A DNA stretch of 34,696 nt. Source: an uncultured Bacteroidales bacterium (GTDB lineage Bacteria > Bacteroidota > Bacteroidia > Bacteroidales > Paludibacteraceae). Where the stretch lies: the NCBI GenBank assembly GCA_902769535.1, contig CACXPH010000021.1, forward strand, positions 430 to 35,125, in the 5' to 3' direction. Below the pieces are notes generated by a model that worked only from the letters and a program-made list of their open reading frames with translations, was not told the DNA's origin and did not search any database. The position numbers and the translations under genes are program-made. Every line of letters begins with the position of its first letter. Positions within the stretch are counted from its first letter, which is position 1. Positions 1 through 4,695 of this stretch are shown here, piece after piece.

Positions 1-747
1 ACTGTTGATATAATAATAATTGGATCGCGCGTAGCACGTATATTGTTTTAATGTCACTTTCTTGGTATGAATCATATACTCCGGACCGATATAGAGTTGC
101 CGTCCCGTCGGGGCAATCATATCATACTCTTCCAAAAAACGGTCGTTTGTTCCGTCCATGTCCTTACAGAGCTCCATTCTGGCTGCCATTTCAGACGCCG
201 GGTGAATCTCATAGATAATACGCTTGGAGAGAGTAGGTTCTGTAACCACACCGGATGGATTCCACGTAAAGTCATCCTTCCAAATAGATTGATCGCACGC
301 GATGCGATACACCGAATCGCCTTTATGCATCCGGTACTTTATTTCTATATAAGATACGTCTGACGTAGTTACGCGATCCGACGCGTAATCGCAAGCAAAC
401 CATCCGTAACTATTTTTCGGCTTGAATTTCCCTTGCGTCGTATCCTTTGCCCATGTGCTCTCAATACGATCTGAAGGAATAGCACGATCCGTATCGTAGT
501 TATACCACCTTACATAAGATATAAACGACGACCGCTCAGGACGATACAGATACACCCATTCATCCGGTTTCGCATAAAGGATCTGCTTCTCTGTGTGGAC
601 AGCCTGCATCCCGTTTTCCTGCAAAGCATCGTACATTCCCACTTTATGCACAAGGCTGAACTCAGCATGCACAGGTACCGATACGAATAAAAACATCCAC
701 AAAGGAGAAATACCTAAAAAGATCTTCTTTTTAAGACTAAATACCAT
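1..747 (-). CDS. Secreted protein, 3' end cut by the window edge
   Basis: An open frame of 249 codons runs from an ATG at 747 off the left edge with no stop, so only the N-terminal part is visible. Residues 1-29 form a signal peptide: a basic start (SLKKK), a hydrophobic stretch, and a cleavage-like VHA-E. The rest is rich in Tyr, Trp, Asp and Arg and has no catalytic motif I recognise. The style (for example YLYRPERSSFISYVRWYNYD) resembles long Bacteroidales surface proteins; that is an impression, not an identification. The ATG lies about 30 nt downstream of a clear Bacteroidetes promoter (778-809). The gene sits just downstream of a short AraC-type regulator and shares an upstream dyad with it, so it is probably a target of that regulator. 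Function is unknown. Confidence 0.8.
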   Translation of the reverse strand, partial: MVFSLKKKIFLGISPLWMFLFVSVPVHAEFSLVHKVGMYDALQENGMQAVHTEKQILYAKPDEWVYLYRPERSSFISYVRWYNYDTDRAIPSDRIESTWAKDTTQGKFKPKNSYGWFACDYASDRVTTSDVSYIEIKYRMHKGDSVYRIACDQSIWKDDFTWNPSGVVTEPTLSKRIIYEIHPASEMAARMELCKDMDGTNDRFLEEYDMIAPTGRQLYIGPEYMIHTKKVTLKQYTCYARSNYYYINS

Positions 748-777
748 AATTTACCTTTCTTGTACCAAAATTCGCTG

Positions 778-809
778 CAAAATTACTACTTTTGAAGGAT
801 ACGCGCAAA
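778..809 (-). promoter_or_regulatory. Bacteroidetes promoter for the secreted-protein gene
   Basis: On the minus strand the -7 box is TAATTTTG (778-785) and the -33 box is TTTG (806-809), with 20 nt between them. This matches the known TTTG / TAnnTTTG consensus. The start codon at 747 lies about 30 nt downstream. Confidence 0.85.
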
Positions 810-815
810 AAAGAA

Positions 816-850
816 TACCGCCCATTTGGGTGCGTCCCAAATAGGCGGTA
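816..850. promoter_or_regulatory. 35-bp dyad upstream of a promoter (operator or terminator)
   Basis: Left arm 816-830 (TACCGCCCATTTGGG) and right arm 836-850 (CCCAAATAGGCGGTA) match at 14 of 15 positions around a 5-nt spacer. Its 13-bp core (818-848) begins 8 nt beyond the -33 box of the promoter at 778-809. A related dyad lies in the same place upstream of the AraC gene (1406-1436). On the minus strand the odd pair is a G-U wobble and the arm is followed by TTCTTTTTT, so it could also end transcription of the AraC gene. Operator is my preferred reading because the arms are conserved between the two sites while the spacers are not. Confidence 0.65.
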
Positions 851-888
851 AAATTTGATGTAAAGTCTAATATATTAAGATCCAATAA

Positions 889-1317
889 TCATATGTTTCT
901 ATATTCAGAGGGAGTAATTCCGAAATATTGACGAAAGAGCCGACGAAGATTGTCCGGAGTCAATCCTACTTCTCCTGCTATTTTTACTATTGATTTATTA
1001 GGACTATTTTTCAATAAATCACATGCTATATCTATTCGGATCCGGTTGAGCCATTGCGGAAAGGAAAGCCCATTGGTGTTAGAACTTATGATCTTATTCA
1101 ACGAGTGCCGTGATAGTTTCATACGTGAAGCAAAGGTTTCTCGATCCATTTGCACATCCGCGTAGAGTTTTTCCTCAAAAACAGCAGTCATAATCCGCAA
1201 GTATTTATTCTTAAGATCCTCATCCTGAGGCGTTAATAAAGGTGCTTCATTACTGCTGCGCATCTTGTGAATCATTTTGACCACCTCTACAAGATTCTTT
1301 TTAATGACCTGACGCAT
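889..1317 (-). CDS. Short AraC-family transcriptional regulator
   Basis: The C-terminal half is an AraC-type DNA-binding domain. The first helix-turn-helix lies around residues 58-80 (RETFASRMKLSRHSLNKII). The second lies around 107-131 (SIVKIAGEVGLTPDNLRRLF), followed by the typical FGITPSEYR end. The first ~50 residues are too short for the usual sugar-binding or sensor domain, so the protein is probably a bare DNA-binding unit. I chose the ATG at 1317 (142 residues). A longer frame opens at 1368, but that codon lies inside the -7 box of the gene's own promoter (1366-1373) and cannot be transcribed from it. The gene has its own promoter and upstream dyad. It is followed by a secreted-protein gene with the same arrangement, which suggests autoregulation plus control of the neighbour. 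Confidence 0.85.
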   Translation of the reverse strand: MRQVIKKNLVEVVKMIHKMRSSNEAPLLTPQDEDLKNKYLRIMTAVFEEKLYADVQMDRETFASRMKLSRHSLNKIISSNTNGLSFPQWLNRIRIDIACDLLKNSPNKSIVKIAGEVGLTPDNLRRLFRQYFGITPSEYRNI

Positions 1318-1365
1318 AACAATAAAAATACGTTTAAACAGACTAATACTAACAAAAAATTTTTG

Positions 1366-1397
1366 CAAAATTAATACTTTTTACTGACATATGCAAA
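1366..1397 (-). promoter_or_regulatory. Promoter of the AraC-type gene
   Basis: The minus-strand -7 box is TAATTTTG (1366-1373) and the -33 box is TTTG (1394-1397), with 20 nt spacing. It rules out the longer start at 1368 for the AraC gene. Confidence 0.85.
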
Positions 1398-1405
1398 AAA
1401 CGTAT

Positions 1406-1436
1406 CCGCTCATTTGGGACACTCCCAAAATAGCGG
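1406..1436. promoter_or_regulatory. Second copy of the dyad, upstream of the AraC gene
   Basis: Arms 1406-1418 (CCGCTCATTTGGG) and 1424-1436 (CCCAAAATAGCGG) flank a 5-nt spacer and pair at 11 of 13 positions. Left-arm identity to the copy at 816-850 is 12/13 and right-arm identity 10/13, while the spacer matches at only 1/5. The dyad centre is 55 bp from the first base of the -7 box in both cases. Confidence 0.65.
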
Positions 1437-1476
1437 CATTTTATCGCAAATCTATGACGGAAAGTCAATATATAAC

Positions 1477-1555
1477 AAAAAAAACGTGAACTTACTGCAT
1501 TTGGTCCGTTCGGGCTACCACACCCATAGTGTCCAATATATACAGAAAGCTCACG
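1477..1555 (-). terminator. Strong intrinsic terminator downstream of nagB
   Basis: On the minus strand a 16-bp stem (1555-1540 with 1500-1485) has one mismatch and two G-U wobbles and is followed by eight U (1477-1484). The wobbles would be A-C mismatches on the other strand, so the RNA is read on the minus strand. The 39-nt loop has its own short pairing (TTGG/CCAA). It separates the sugar operon from the AraC gene. Confidence 0.8.
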
Positions 1556-1613
1556 TGCGTACGTGAGCGTTTTGCATCTATTATAGGAACACTAATAATT
1601 CAAGTTGTGGTAG
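1477..1613 (-). ncRNA. Candidate structured RNA with alternative folds
   Basis: The stretch between nagB and the AraC gene holds no ORF but has strong structure. One fold nests CTACCACA/TGTGGTAG (arms 1606-1613 and 1515-1522), AGTGTTCC/GGACACT (1586-1593 and 1528-1534, one bulge) and a perfect 8-bp hairpin GCTCACGT/ACGTGAGC (1549-1568). The other fold is the terminator at 1477-1555. It uses the ACGTGAGC strand, so the two cannot form together. The best upstream promoter candidate, GTTG at 1663-1666 with TAGCGTTTG at 1635-1643, is poor, so the RNA may be the 3' end of the nagB transcript. I do not recognise a known family. Further upstream, 1614-1781 holds only a small hairpin (GCGCAA/TTGCGC near 1662-1677). 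Confidence 0.45.
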
Positions 1614-1781
1614 ATGAACGAATCCCTAATAAAGCAAACGCTAATTATTATATGTCAGTGCGCAACGCTTTGCGCCTTTAAAATCGGTCAATAATAGCCG
1701 ATATATTTTTACCGTTTTATAATGCTGTCAATGCCTGCGGAGAGGATCATTTCAGCAAAAGCATGCTACAAACCGAGATAG

Positions 1782-2591
1782 TTACAGCAGCGTTTTCGGA
1801 TCGAGGTTGTTTTTCTCGATATCTTTGAAATAATTGAATGTACCTACTTTGAGTTCCTCGCACGCTGCCTCGTCGCAGACGATGATGCCGTGTTGGTGCA
1901 TCTGGAGAGCGGAAACAGTCCACATATGGCTGATCGGCTCCTCGATGGCGTGCTGCAACGCACGGGCTTTGTTATGGCCGTTGACCATGATCAGCACCTC
2001 TTTGGCGTCCATGACGGTTCCTACACCTACCGTGAGAGCTGTCTTGGGTACCTTGTTCACATCGTTGTCAAAGAAACGACTGTTGGCAATAATCGTATCC
2101 GTTGTCAGCTCTTTCTTTCGGGTTCGGCTGGTGAGTGACGAACCCGGTTCGTTAAATGCAATATGTCCGTCCGGTCCGATGCCGCCCAGGAAAAGATGGA
2201 TACCGCCGATATTCCGGATCTTCTCTTCGTATCGCGCACACTCGGCCACAAGGTCGTCGGCGTTGCCGTTGAGGATATTCACGTTCTCCTTGCGGATGTC
2301 GATATGATTGAAGAAGTTATTCCACATGAAGCTGTGATAGCTCTCGGGGTGCTCTTCGGGCAGACCCACATATTCGTCCATGTTGAAGGTCACTACATTA
2401 CGGAAAGACACTTTGCCTTCCTTGTTCAGTTTGATGAGGGCCTTGTACATGCCCAGAGGCGAACTGCCGGTCGGCAGCCCCAGTACAAACGGCGTGCCCT
2501 CTTTCGGACCGAACTCGTTGATACGTTTTGCTACATAATTCGCAGCCCACTGGCTCAGCAGGTCATACGAAGGTTCAATAATTACTCGCAT
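1782..2591 (-). CDS. nagB: Glucosamine-6-phosphate deaminase
   Basis: Cytoplasmic enzyme that converts glucosamine 6-phosphate to fructose 6-phosphate and ammonia, the last step that brings amino sugars into glycolysis. Its 269 residues match the usual family length (about 266). Family motifs are intact: the phosphate-binding loop [10 protein letters not shown] (38-47), the catalytic Asp72 in FNMDEYVGL, and [17 protein letters not shown] with Asp141, His143 and Glu148. It is the last gene of a three-gene operon after a YhcH-like gene and glgB, 43 nt downstream of glgB. Together with the YhcH-like protein it points to use of sialic acid or GlcNAc. No own promoter is visible. A terminator and structured RNA follow at 1477-1613. 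Confidence 0.97.
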
Positions 2592-2634
2592 TTACTATTT
2601 ATGATTTCAATTTTCAAATTTATGGTTTCAAATT

Positions 2635-4695
2635 TTAGTCCAGTTTCTGCAATACCATCGCACAACGTGCCGGGATATACAGTTTGAGCCAGCCCTTGCC
2701 ATCCTTGTCATAGAGCGGATCGTAGTCGGTGAAGTGCTCCACGCTGTCGTCGTTGAGGCCGAAACCTGCAAACTCTTTGGCGTCGGTGTTCAGCACCACT
2801 TTGTACTTGCCCTTCGGCACAAGGATGCCGTAGTCCGCGAAGGACTTCTGGCCGTTCCAGTTGAAGATGAACAGCAGGTCGTTTCGCGAGTACGCCACTA
2901 CTTGGTCTCCCTCGTTGTCCCACCATTTCATTACCCACGGCAAGTGCTTGCCTACGTTGTATTTCTTCTCCTCGGCCGTCGGGTTCTGTGTGAGGATGTG
3001 TTTCTTGAGCAGATGGATCATCGCCTCGTCAAAGCGGTTGAGGTCCGCGAAGAAATAGTTGGGGTTATCCACCAGACTCCACTGACGACGCGCGTACTTA
3101 TAACTCCATCCGTTGCCCTCGCGCGGGAAATCAATCCACTCCGGATGACCGAACTCGTTGCCCATAAAGGTCAGGTATCCGCCATTAATGGTGGATGCGG
3201 TGATGAGTCGGATCATCTTATGCAGCGCAATACCGCGGTCGACCATATAGGTGGAATGACCATGCTCGAAATGCCAATACATGTCGGCGTCCACGAGGCG
3301 GAAGATAATCGTCTTATCACCCACCAGCGCCTGGTCATGACTCTCGGCGTACGAGATAGTCTTCTCGTCCTCACGGCGGTTAGTCATCTCGAACAGGATA
3401 TGACCGGCTTTCCAGTCCTCGTCCTTCACTTCCTTGATATACTTGATCCAGAAATCGGGAATACCCATCGCCAGACGATAATCAAAGCCCACGCCGCCGT
3501 CCGCTATCGGGCAAGCCAGACCCGGCATACCGCTCATCTCTTCGGCGATCGTGATCGCCTCGGGTTTCACTTCATGAATGAGTTTGTTAGCCAACGTGAG
3601 GTACATCAACGCATCGCCGTCTTCGTTACCGTTGAAGTAAGAAGGATAGCCGTTGAAGTCTTCGCCGAGACCGTGGCTGCGGTAGATCATCGAGGTCACA
3701 CCGTCGAAGCGGAAACCGTCGAAGTCGTACTCGTCAAGCCAGAACTTACAGTTACTCAGAAGGAAATGCAGCACTTCGTTCTTGCCATAGTTGAAGCAGA
3801 GGCTGTCCCAAGCCGGGTGCTCACGGCGACCACCGTCATGGAAATACTGATAGCCGGTACCGTCGAAGTTTCCAAGGCCTTCGAGCTCGTTCTTCACCGC
3901 ATGGCTGTGCACAAGGTCCATGATCACATGCATACCGCGACCGTGGGCATCATCGATAAGTGCTTTCAGTTCGTTCGGCGTACCGAAACGACTGCTGGCA
4001 GCGAAGAAGTTGGATACATGGTATCCGAACGAACCGTAGTACGGGTGTTCCTGGATCGCCATGATCTGCACGCAGTTATAACCCAACTCGGCGATACGCG
4101 GCAATACATCACGACGGAACTCCTCATAAGAGTTTACTTTCTCCTGCTCGGAACTCATGCCAATGTGGCACTCGTATATATAAAGCCCGCCTTTCTCTTT
4201 GAGTTTCTTTCCGCGGTTCTTCCACTGATATTCGGGTTCGTTCCACACCTGTGCGGAGAAGATCTTGGTCTGCTCGTCCTGCACCACGCGGCGCACGTAG
4301 GACGGGATACGCTCTCCGTAACCGCCGTTCCACTCGACGAGCAGTTTGTACATCTGGCCGTGCTGCATGGCTTTCTCCGGCAGTTGGGCTTCCCATACGC
4401 CGTTACCCACCGGTTGCAGACGATACGCCTCGTCCTTGCTCCAGTTGTTCATGTCGCCCTTGATATAGATGGCAGTGGCATTCGGAGCCCACTCGCGGAG
4501 CACCCAACCGGACTTTGTCCGGTGCAGACCGAAATAGAGGTAGCCGGTCGCCCATTGTGCCAACGACTGTCCGCCGGTCAACTCCGCTTCTTTATTGCGG
4601 GCGTAATCCGCGCGCGCCTGTAACGCACCCTCGTACGGTTGTAAATACGGATCGCGCGCTACGATCTTTAAGTGTTTTTCTTTCTTGGTTGCCAT
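2635..4695 (-). CDS. glgB: 1,4-alpha-glucan branching enzyme
   Basis: Transfers alpha-1,4 glucan segments to alpha-1,6 positions during glycogen synthesis; cytoplasmic. The protein has 686 residues. An N-terminal CBM48 lies about 45-135 (GYLYFGLHRT...WAPNATAIYIKGDMNNW). The GH13 catalytic barrel follows from about residue 170, with a C-terminal all-beta domain from about 585. Catalytic residues are Asp331 (GFRFDGVTSM), Glu385 (ITIAEEMSGMP) and the His453-Asp454 pair (YAESHDQALVGDK). The sequence resembles the eukaryote-like GBE1 type more than E. coli GlgB. It sits between a YhcH-like gene (41 nt upstream) and nagB (43 nt downstream). Both spacers are AT-rich with TTTCAAAT-like words and no visible promoter, so the three genes are probably one transcript. 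Confidence 0.96.
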   Translation of the reverse strand: MATKKEKHLKIVARDPYLQPYEGALQARADYARNKEAELTGGQSLAQWATGYLYFGLHRTKSGWVLREWAPNATAIYIKGDMNNWSKDEAYRLQPVGNGVWEAQLPEKAMQHGQMYKLLVEWNGGYGERIPSYVRRVVQDEQTKIFSAQVWNEPEYQWKNRGKKLKEKGGLYIYECHIGMSSEQEKVNSYEEFRRDVLPRIAELGYNCVQIMAIQEHPYYGSFGYHVSNFFAASSRFGTPNELKALIDDAHGRGMHVIMDLVHSHAVKNELEGLGNFDGTGYQYFHDGGRREHPAWDSLCFNYGKNEVLHFLLSNCKFWLDEYDFDGFRFDGVTSMIYRSHGLGEDFNGYPSYFNGNEDGDALMYLTLANKLIHEVKPEAITIAEEMSGMPGLACPIADGGVGFDYRLAMGIPDFWIKYIKEVKDEDWKAGHILFEMTNRREDEKTISYAESHDQALVGDKTIIFRLVDADMYWHFEHGHSTYMVDRGIALHKMIRLITASTINGGYLTFMGNEFGHPEWIDFPREGNGWSYKYARRQWSLVDNPNYFFADLNRFDEAMIHLLKKHILTQNPTAEEKKYNVGKHLPWVMKWWDNEGDQVVAYSRNDLLFIFNWNGQKSFADYGILVPKGKYKVVLNTDAKEFAGFGLNDDSVEHFTDYDPLYDKDGKGWLKLYIPARCAMVLQKLD

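Follow-up and report, generated by a model that had tools for sequence, protein, structure and literature searches.

Two similar inverted repeats, D1 and D2, are probably operators for the short AraC-type protein encoded between them, which would bind each as an inverted pair and likely activate, in the class I manner, its own gene and a neighbouring gene for a large exported protein. The prediction of an operator pair for an autoregulated AraC-type protein is well supported by the sequence comparisons below; the arrangement is of an ordinary kind, and its symmetry is unusual for the group. The window, meaning the whole 34,696-nucleotide stretch that was analysed, covers positions 430-35125 of contig 21 in a 1.89-Mb draft assembly (completeness 84.85%) of an uncultured Bacteroidales bacterium. 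The minus strand, which is the sense strand for both dyads and both promoters, carries in order a nagB-like gene, D2, the AraC-type gene, D1 and the exported-protein gene (Table 1).

Table 1. Positions of the features discussed, numbered from the first letter of the window.
Feature	Position	Strand	Basis and remarks
Dyad D1, predicted operator of exported-protein gene	816..850 (31-bp core 818-848)	-	dyad search; also in G014, G029, G130
Dyad D2, predicted operator of AraC-type gene	1406..1436	-	dyad search; self site in 18/18 subfamily genomes
-33 box TTTG, exported-protein gene promoter	806..809	-	sequence
-7 box TAATTTTG, exported-protein gene promoter	778..785	-	sequence; read 785-778
-33 box TTTG, AraC gene promoter	1394..1397	-	sequence
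-7 box TAATTTTG, AraC gene promoter	1366..1373	-	sequence; read 1373-1366
Large exported protein, 5' part of gene, runs off contig	1..747	-	ORF
Short AraC-type regulator, 142 aa from ATG	889..1317	-	HTH_18 E 7e-15
RNA-like element, ~170 nt	about 1477-1647	-	covariation; just upstream of D2; copies in L195-L242
nagB-like gene	1782-2591	-	head of minus-strand order

The mechanical dyad search gave D1 arms of 15 bp (93% complementary) and D2 arms of 14 bp (86%). The left 13-bp arms, CCGCCCATTTGGG and CCGCTCATTTGGG, were identical at 12 of 13 positions and the right arms, CCCAAATAGGCGG and CCCAAAATAGCGG, at 10 of 13, while the spacers were unlike (TGCGT and ACACT); both the search and a reading of the sequence therefore bore out the shared arms and differing spacers described in the earlier note, as well as its assignment of one dyad to each gene. 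The two -7 boxes belong to Bacteroidetes-type promoters. Measured from the dyad centres at 833 and 1421 in the direction of transcription, the -7 box had its first base 48 nt away and its last base 55 nt away in both cases, so the 55 bp reported previously was the right number attached to the wrong end of the box. Similarly, the reported gap of 8 nt between dyad and -33 TTTG held for both 31-bp cores (818-848 and 1406-1436), and measured from position 816 the gap was 6 nt. The pattern TTTGGGN{2,9}CCCAAA was present twice in the window, where shuffles gave an expectation of 0.01, and the longer pattern CATTTGGGN{2,9}CCCAAA matched only D1 and D2 in the entire assembly. A scan of the same genome with the outer arm of D2 fixed in the pattern gave no match.

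The window AraC protein scored 55.5 bits with HTH_18 (cut-off 33.6) and 39.1 bits with HTH_AraC (cut-off 26.6), as a double-HTH AraC domain, and the domain search found nothing else in it. A TTG at 1368 offers an alternative start, which however would overlap with the -7 box. The exported protein had no match in Pfam or NCBIfam; its full-length counterpart in genome G029 has 1405 aa. Genomes G014, G029 and G130, like the window genome (G000), carried the exported-protein gene with a dyad in front and repeated the whole dyad, AraC gene, dyad and exported-protein gene module. Together with the dyads found upstream of the subfamily's own genes, this argues for the two-gene module with autoregulation that the earlier note had suggested, as far as sequences can tell. 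Over the first ~380 residues the exported protein of G130 was 86-89% identical to those of three close genomes (86% to the window, L094 against window 1-1368), and the AraC proteins of the same genomes were 57-59% identical (58% to the window), with the arrangement unchanged; either the regulator diverges faster or the target gene was transferred between species.

We searched 178 genomes of the genus with an AraC-domain profile at E <= 1e-20. The subfamily was found in 18 of them, in a single copy each and at 3e-57 or better, and with a loose cut-off the next-best AraC domains began at 1e-13 (six genomes). Among 200 genomes sampled from the family, six carried the subfamily, every one of them belonging to the genus. 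All 17 loci in named genomes belonged to MAGs of Bacteroidales or Paludibacteraceae, and some of the record titles mention sheep, goat or roe-deer. In the open-access literature, we recognised no description of the subfamily or its site.

Independently of the subfamily search, the same 178 genomes were searched for dyads with a degenerate pattern and spacers of 5 or 6, with a spacer of 4 as control. With spacer 5, 0-1 mismatch was seen in 16 dyads and 2 mismatches in 12; for spacer 6 the numbers were 10 and 1, and the control gave three dyads, each with 2 mismatches. Promoter placement was found for all 26 dyads with 0-1 mismatch and for 4 of the 13 with 2; the remaining nine comprised eight within ORFs (spacer 5) and one that had no -7 box (spacer 6, G162). 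In all, 20 genomes carried 30 promoter-placed dyads, two of which, situated between divergent genes, face two promoters each and thus raise the number of dyad-promoter pairs to 32. An exact TAnnTTTG began 48-50 nt from the dyad centre in 31 of these 32 pairs, against a background of 0.16% of positions per 3-nt slot, and the exceptional pair (G004) had TACCTTTT as its -7 box at the same offset. An early, looser pattern was set aside: it matched 44 of 151 genomes, mostly with 2 mismatches and at a chance-like level, its reversed control also matched some genomes, usually once, and the two matches inspected (in G042 and on G014:C11) were both inside ORFs.

Three other readings of the dyads were considered. 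A dispersed or mobile repeat was rejected, given that the core pattern occurred just twice in the assembly and that every genus dyad with 0-1 mismatch was promoter-placed. An invertible promoter found no support, with order and orientation identical in G014, G029 and G130. An RNA family was likewise rejected, as window 1-3000 gave no Rfam match up to E 1.

Every one of the 18 subfamily genomes had a dyad upstream of the subfamily gene (a self dyad), and placed dyads of any kind occurred in 18/18 genomes with the subfamily versus 2/160 without it (Fisher 9e-23). Since the self-dyad association could reflect mere linkage, self sites were set aside in a second test. Non-self dyads were then present in 9/18 subfamily genomes versus 2/160 others (Fisher 6e-9); with the 18 genomes merged into 9 lineages, the test gave 2e-6, 6e-5 and 1e-3 when the rest were counted as 160, 80 and 40. 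Raw spacer-5 matches, with placement ignored, were found in 13/18 versus 8/160. Conservation of the dyad and promoter near homologues, for which the earlier note had proposed a search, was thus present at self sites, at non-self sites and in the spacing. Non-self sites preceded the exported-protein gene in G000, G014, G029 and G130, an outer-membrane efflux gene heading an apparent efflux operon in G114, and unassigned sequence in G158 and G160; in G177 and G194, a lipoprotein-like gene and an MFS gene diverge from a dyad that they share. Two genomes, G138 (92% complete) and G117 (80% complete), bore promoter-placed dyads with no subfamily gene at E <= 1e-20. One dyad of G117 preceded the same efflux gene as in G114, and another preceded sequence with no clear gene; a search near the G138 dyad found no subfamily remnant. 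In G049 and G011 the exported protein was present (60% and 53%), with neither the dyad nor the subfamily. Dyads with a promoter and no clear gene directly downstream were seen in G117 (L189 position 9086), G158 (L151 position 3829), G160 (L190 position 2646) and G138 (L096 position 2463), where a small RNA or small gene possibly lies.

The half-site consensus was derived from 34 half-sites of 17 of the 30 dyads, with spacer-6 dyads and most exact repeats in close relatives omitted. It reads YCRYYNATTTGGG, with position 6 free, and the inner TT.GG (positions 8, 9, 11 and 12) was invariant in all 34. Two blocks about one helical turn apart would fit a single AraC domain with its two HTH units, and the inverted pair of half-sites would fit two protein molecules. 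At self sites, the third base was G in 12 of 12 half-sites of six genomes whose second HTH reads DNLRR, and A in 11 of 12 half-sites of six genomes with NNFHR; the TPR form, with NNFLR, had G and T. The rule is not strict, because the shared non-self dyad of G177 has T and A as third bases. The NNFHR members form one group in the subfamily tree of 14 of the 18 proteins (support 93/93, not starred), so the link between base and residues amounts to about one evolutionary event. If it holds, the protein would be oriented with its first HTH inward on TTTGGG and its second HTH outward.

Among 11 proteins examined for hydrophobic stretches, none was found in those of the window genome, G130, G033 and G216, one near the N-terminus occurred in G058, G208, G102, G177 and G194, and in G160 and G004 the stretch followed a long N-terminal region. 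The window protein thus lacks a membrane-segment-like stretch, whereas 7 of its 10 relatives have one. In G004, a TPR-TM form with an HTH, the long N-terminal region gave weak TPR matches below the Pfam cut-off. In our reading, the short forms arose by loss of the sensor, on one or more occasions in the tree. A broader account, which we put forward tentatively, is that a genus-restricted AraC subfamily may have kept its compact inverted-repeat operator while first the TPR sensor region and then the membrane segment were lost, with the second HTH reading the outer block. If true, sequences would reveal both how specificity changed in natural evolution and which way round the protein sits on its site. 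The members would also form a series, running from TPR-membrane-HTH to lone HTH, with the operator retained and the sensor gone.

Among solved chains, the subfamily profile matched an AraC-type hybrid two-component system (HTCS; 12aw, E 9e-8), a response regulator (6swi, 2e-10), MarA (1bl0, 1xs9) and SoxS (7w5w). Like the window protein, MarA and SoxS consist of the DNA-binding domain alone; MarA- and SoxS-type proteins, however, bind in monomeric form, and their sites lack the dyad symmetry found here. HTCS and the AraC-type RhaR of Bacteroides resemble the present system in having an AraC-type DNA-binding domain and an operator upstream of target promoters. However, the motifs of HTCS and SusR (PMC3878776) and of the AraC-type rhamnose regulators of Bacteroides (PMC3870299) are described as direct repeats, while the half-sites were inverted in all 30 promoter-placed dyads. 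HTCS also contain kinase and receiver domains that are absent from the subfamily relatives seen here; instead of a periplasmic sensor with such domains, the window protein has the AraC domain only and that of G004 an HTH with the weak TPR matches. According to PMC3870299, E. coli RhaR and RhaS are AraC-family proteins with inverted-repeat sites, and RhaR activates its own operon; its half-sites and spacer are 17 bp each, compared with half-sites of ~13 bp and 5 or 6 bp between arms here. The inverted symmetry is therefore unusual among the AraC-type sites of Bacteroides described in PMC3878776 and PMC3870299 and not for the AraC family, E. coli RhaR being a case of it.

We infer that two AraC-type molecules would bind and pair on each dyad in inverted orientation, one per half-site, and that the site is centred about 60 bp ahead of the predicted start of transcription. 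The bound regulator would most likely aid RNA polymerase in the class I manner, with both its own gene and that of the exported protein next to it as targets. Class I activators usually sit upstream of the -33 box at about this distance, and for this reason activation is preferred. The position was estimated from Flavobacterium psychrophilum, where the -7 box lies at -12 to -5 (PMC9723704); with start sites placed in this way, the dyad centre falls near -60 to -62 and so beyond the -33 box on its upstream side, as expected of a class I site with a fixed promoter distance. Because the window protein has no membrane-segment-like stretch, its own level may perhaps be the main input. A lone AraC domain need not dimerise, which counts against paired binding. 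The model predicts, for uncultured ruminant Bacteroidales (Paludibacteraceae), an operator whose half-site and promoter geometry are exactly specified, together with a small regulon.

The bound protein might instead repress both genes, or repress itself and activate its neighbour. The sequence is compatible with either sign of control, and AraC-type genes are often negatively autoregulated; nevertheless, the dyad lies entirely upstream of the -33 box, at a fixed distance in 31/32 pairs and in the usual place of an activator, and we regard repression as rather doubtful. It is quite unlikely that another dimeric regulator, for example of the CRP type, binds the dyads and has the AraC gene merely as one target. 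Long palindromes are typical of CRP-type dimers, and dyads occurred without the subfamily in G138 and G117. Moreover, PMC3878776 and PMC3870299 describe direct repeats for the AraC-type motifs of Bacteroides and attribute a 22-bp palindrome there to a Crp-like factor. Against such a regulator, dyads at other genes tracked the subfamily, and no match of any placement with 0-1 mismatch occurred in the other 158 genomes.

The earlier note had also raised the possibility of terminators with a U tract that doubles as the -33 box. On this reading each dyad would serve the gene upstream as an intrinsic terminator, and its U tract would have been reused in the promoter. D1 lies ~40 nt past the AraC stop codon, six T follow both window dyads, and in G033, G058, G208 and G102 a dyad stands behind a same-strand sufS-like gene. 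Across 29 pairs, however, hairpin energy spanned -5 to -24 kcal/mol and T runs were between 2 and 9 long, and in the window the T run begins ~5 nt past the stem. ORF maps further showed that the upstream gene points away at five dyads (those of the AraC genes of G130 and G177, that of G138, and the shared lipoprotein/MFS dyads of G177 and G194). A stable hairpin with an immediate U tract and a same-strand gene upstream was thus not a feature common to the dyads; what is conserved is the base identity of the inner block and the promoter distance. The variable hairpin and T run and the five divergent upstream genes indicate that termination is not the common function, and as the main role of the dyads it is highly improbable. 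D1, just behind the AraC gene, could possibly act as a weak terminator in a side role in the window.

Apart from the operators, a covarying RNA-like element lies just upstream of D2 and may be more novel than the operator pair. Its relatives were found at E <= 1e-3 in 104 of the 178 genus genomes. Fifty copies were compared, namely that of the window and better-scoring relatives. In 40 of them a structure of 44 pairs, itself predicted from this alignment, was 97.9% paired, against 28-39% when slid, and double-change cells numbered 178 versus a shuffle mean of 47. Rfam gave no match to window 1-3000 up to E 1; two relatives of the element gave only matches far below the gathering score, among which MicX (E 0.05, 23.6 of 75 bits) overlaps the element. 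Among 48 copies examined, 45 were anchored and 43 of these had an ORF; judged by eye, 41 of the 43 encode exported-looking proteins, with starts 3-105 nt downstream of the element. The motif GCTCACG in the apical hairpin is repeated before the final T run, making an attenuator or riboswitch-like leader possible.

Two further observations concern sequences upstream of AraC genes. The sequence TTAGTCTG occurred between promoter and AraC start (for example at window 1333-1340) in 7 of 11 non-TPR subfamily genomes, namely G000, G014, G029, G058, G102, G177 and G194, and its reading frame was closed in G177. Upstream of the AraC gene of G029 (L006), another sequence showed a similar fold, with a AGCGTTTGCT start, a long stem and an apical hairpin, one arm of which (CGTCCG) reappears before the T run; this fold may be a diverged version of the window element.
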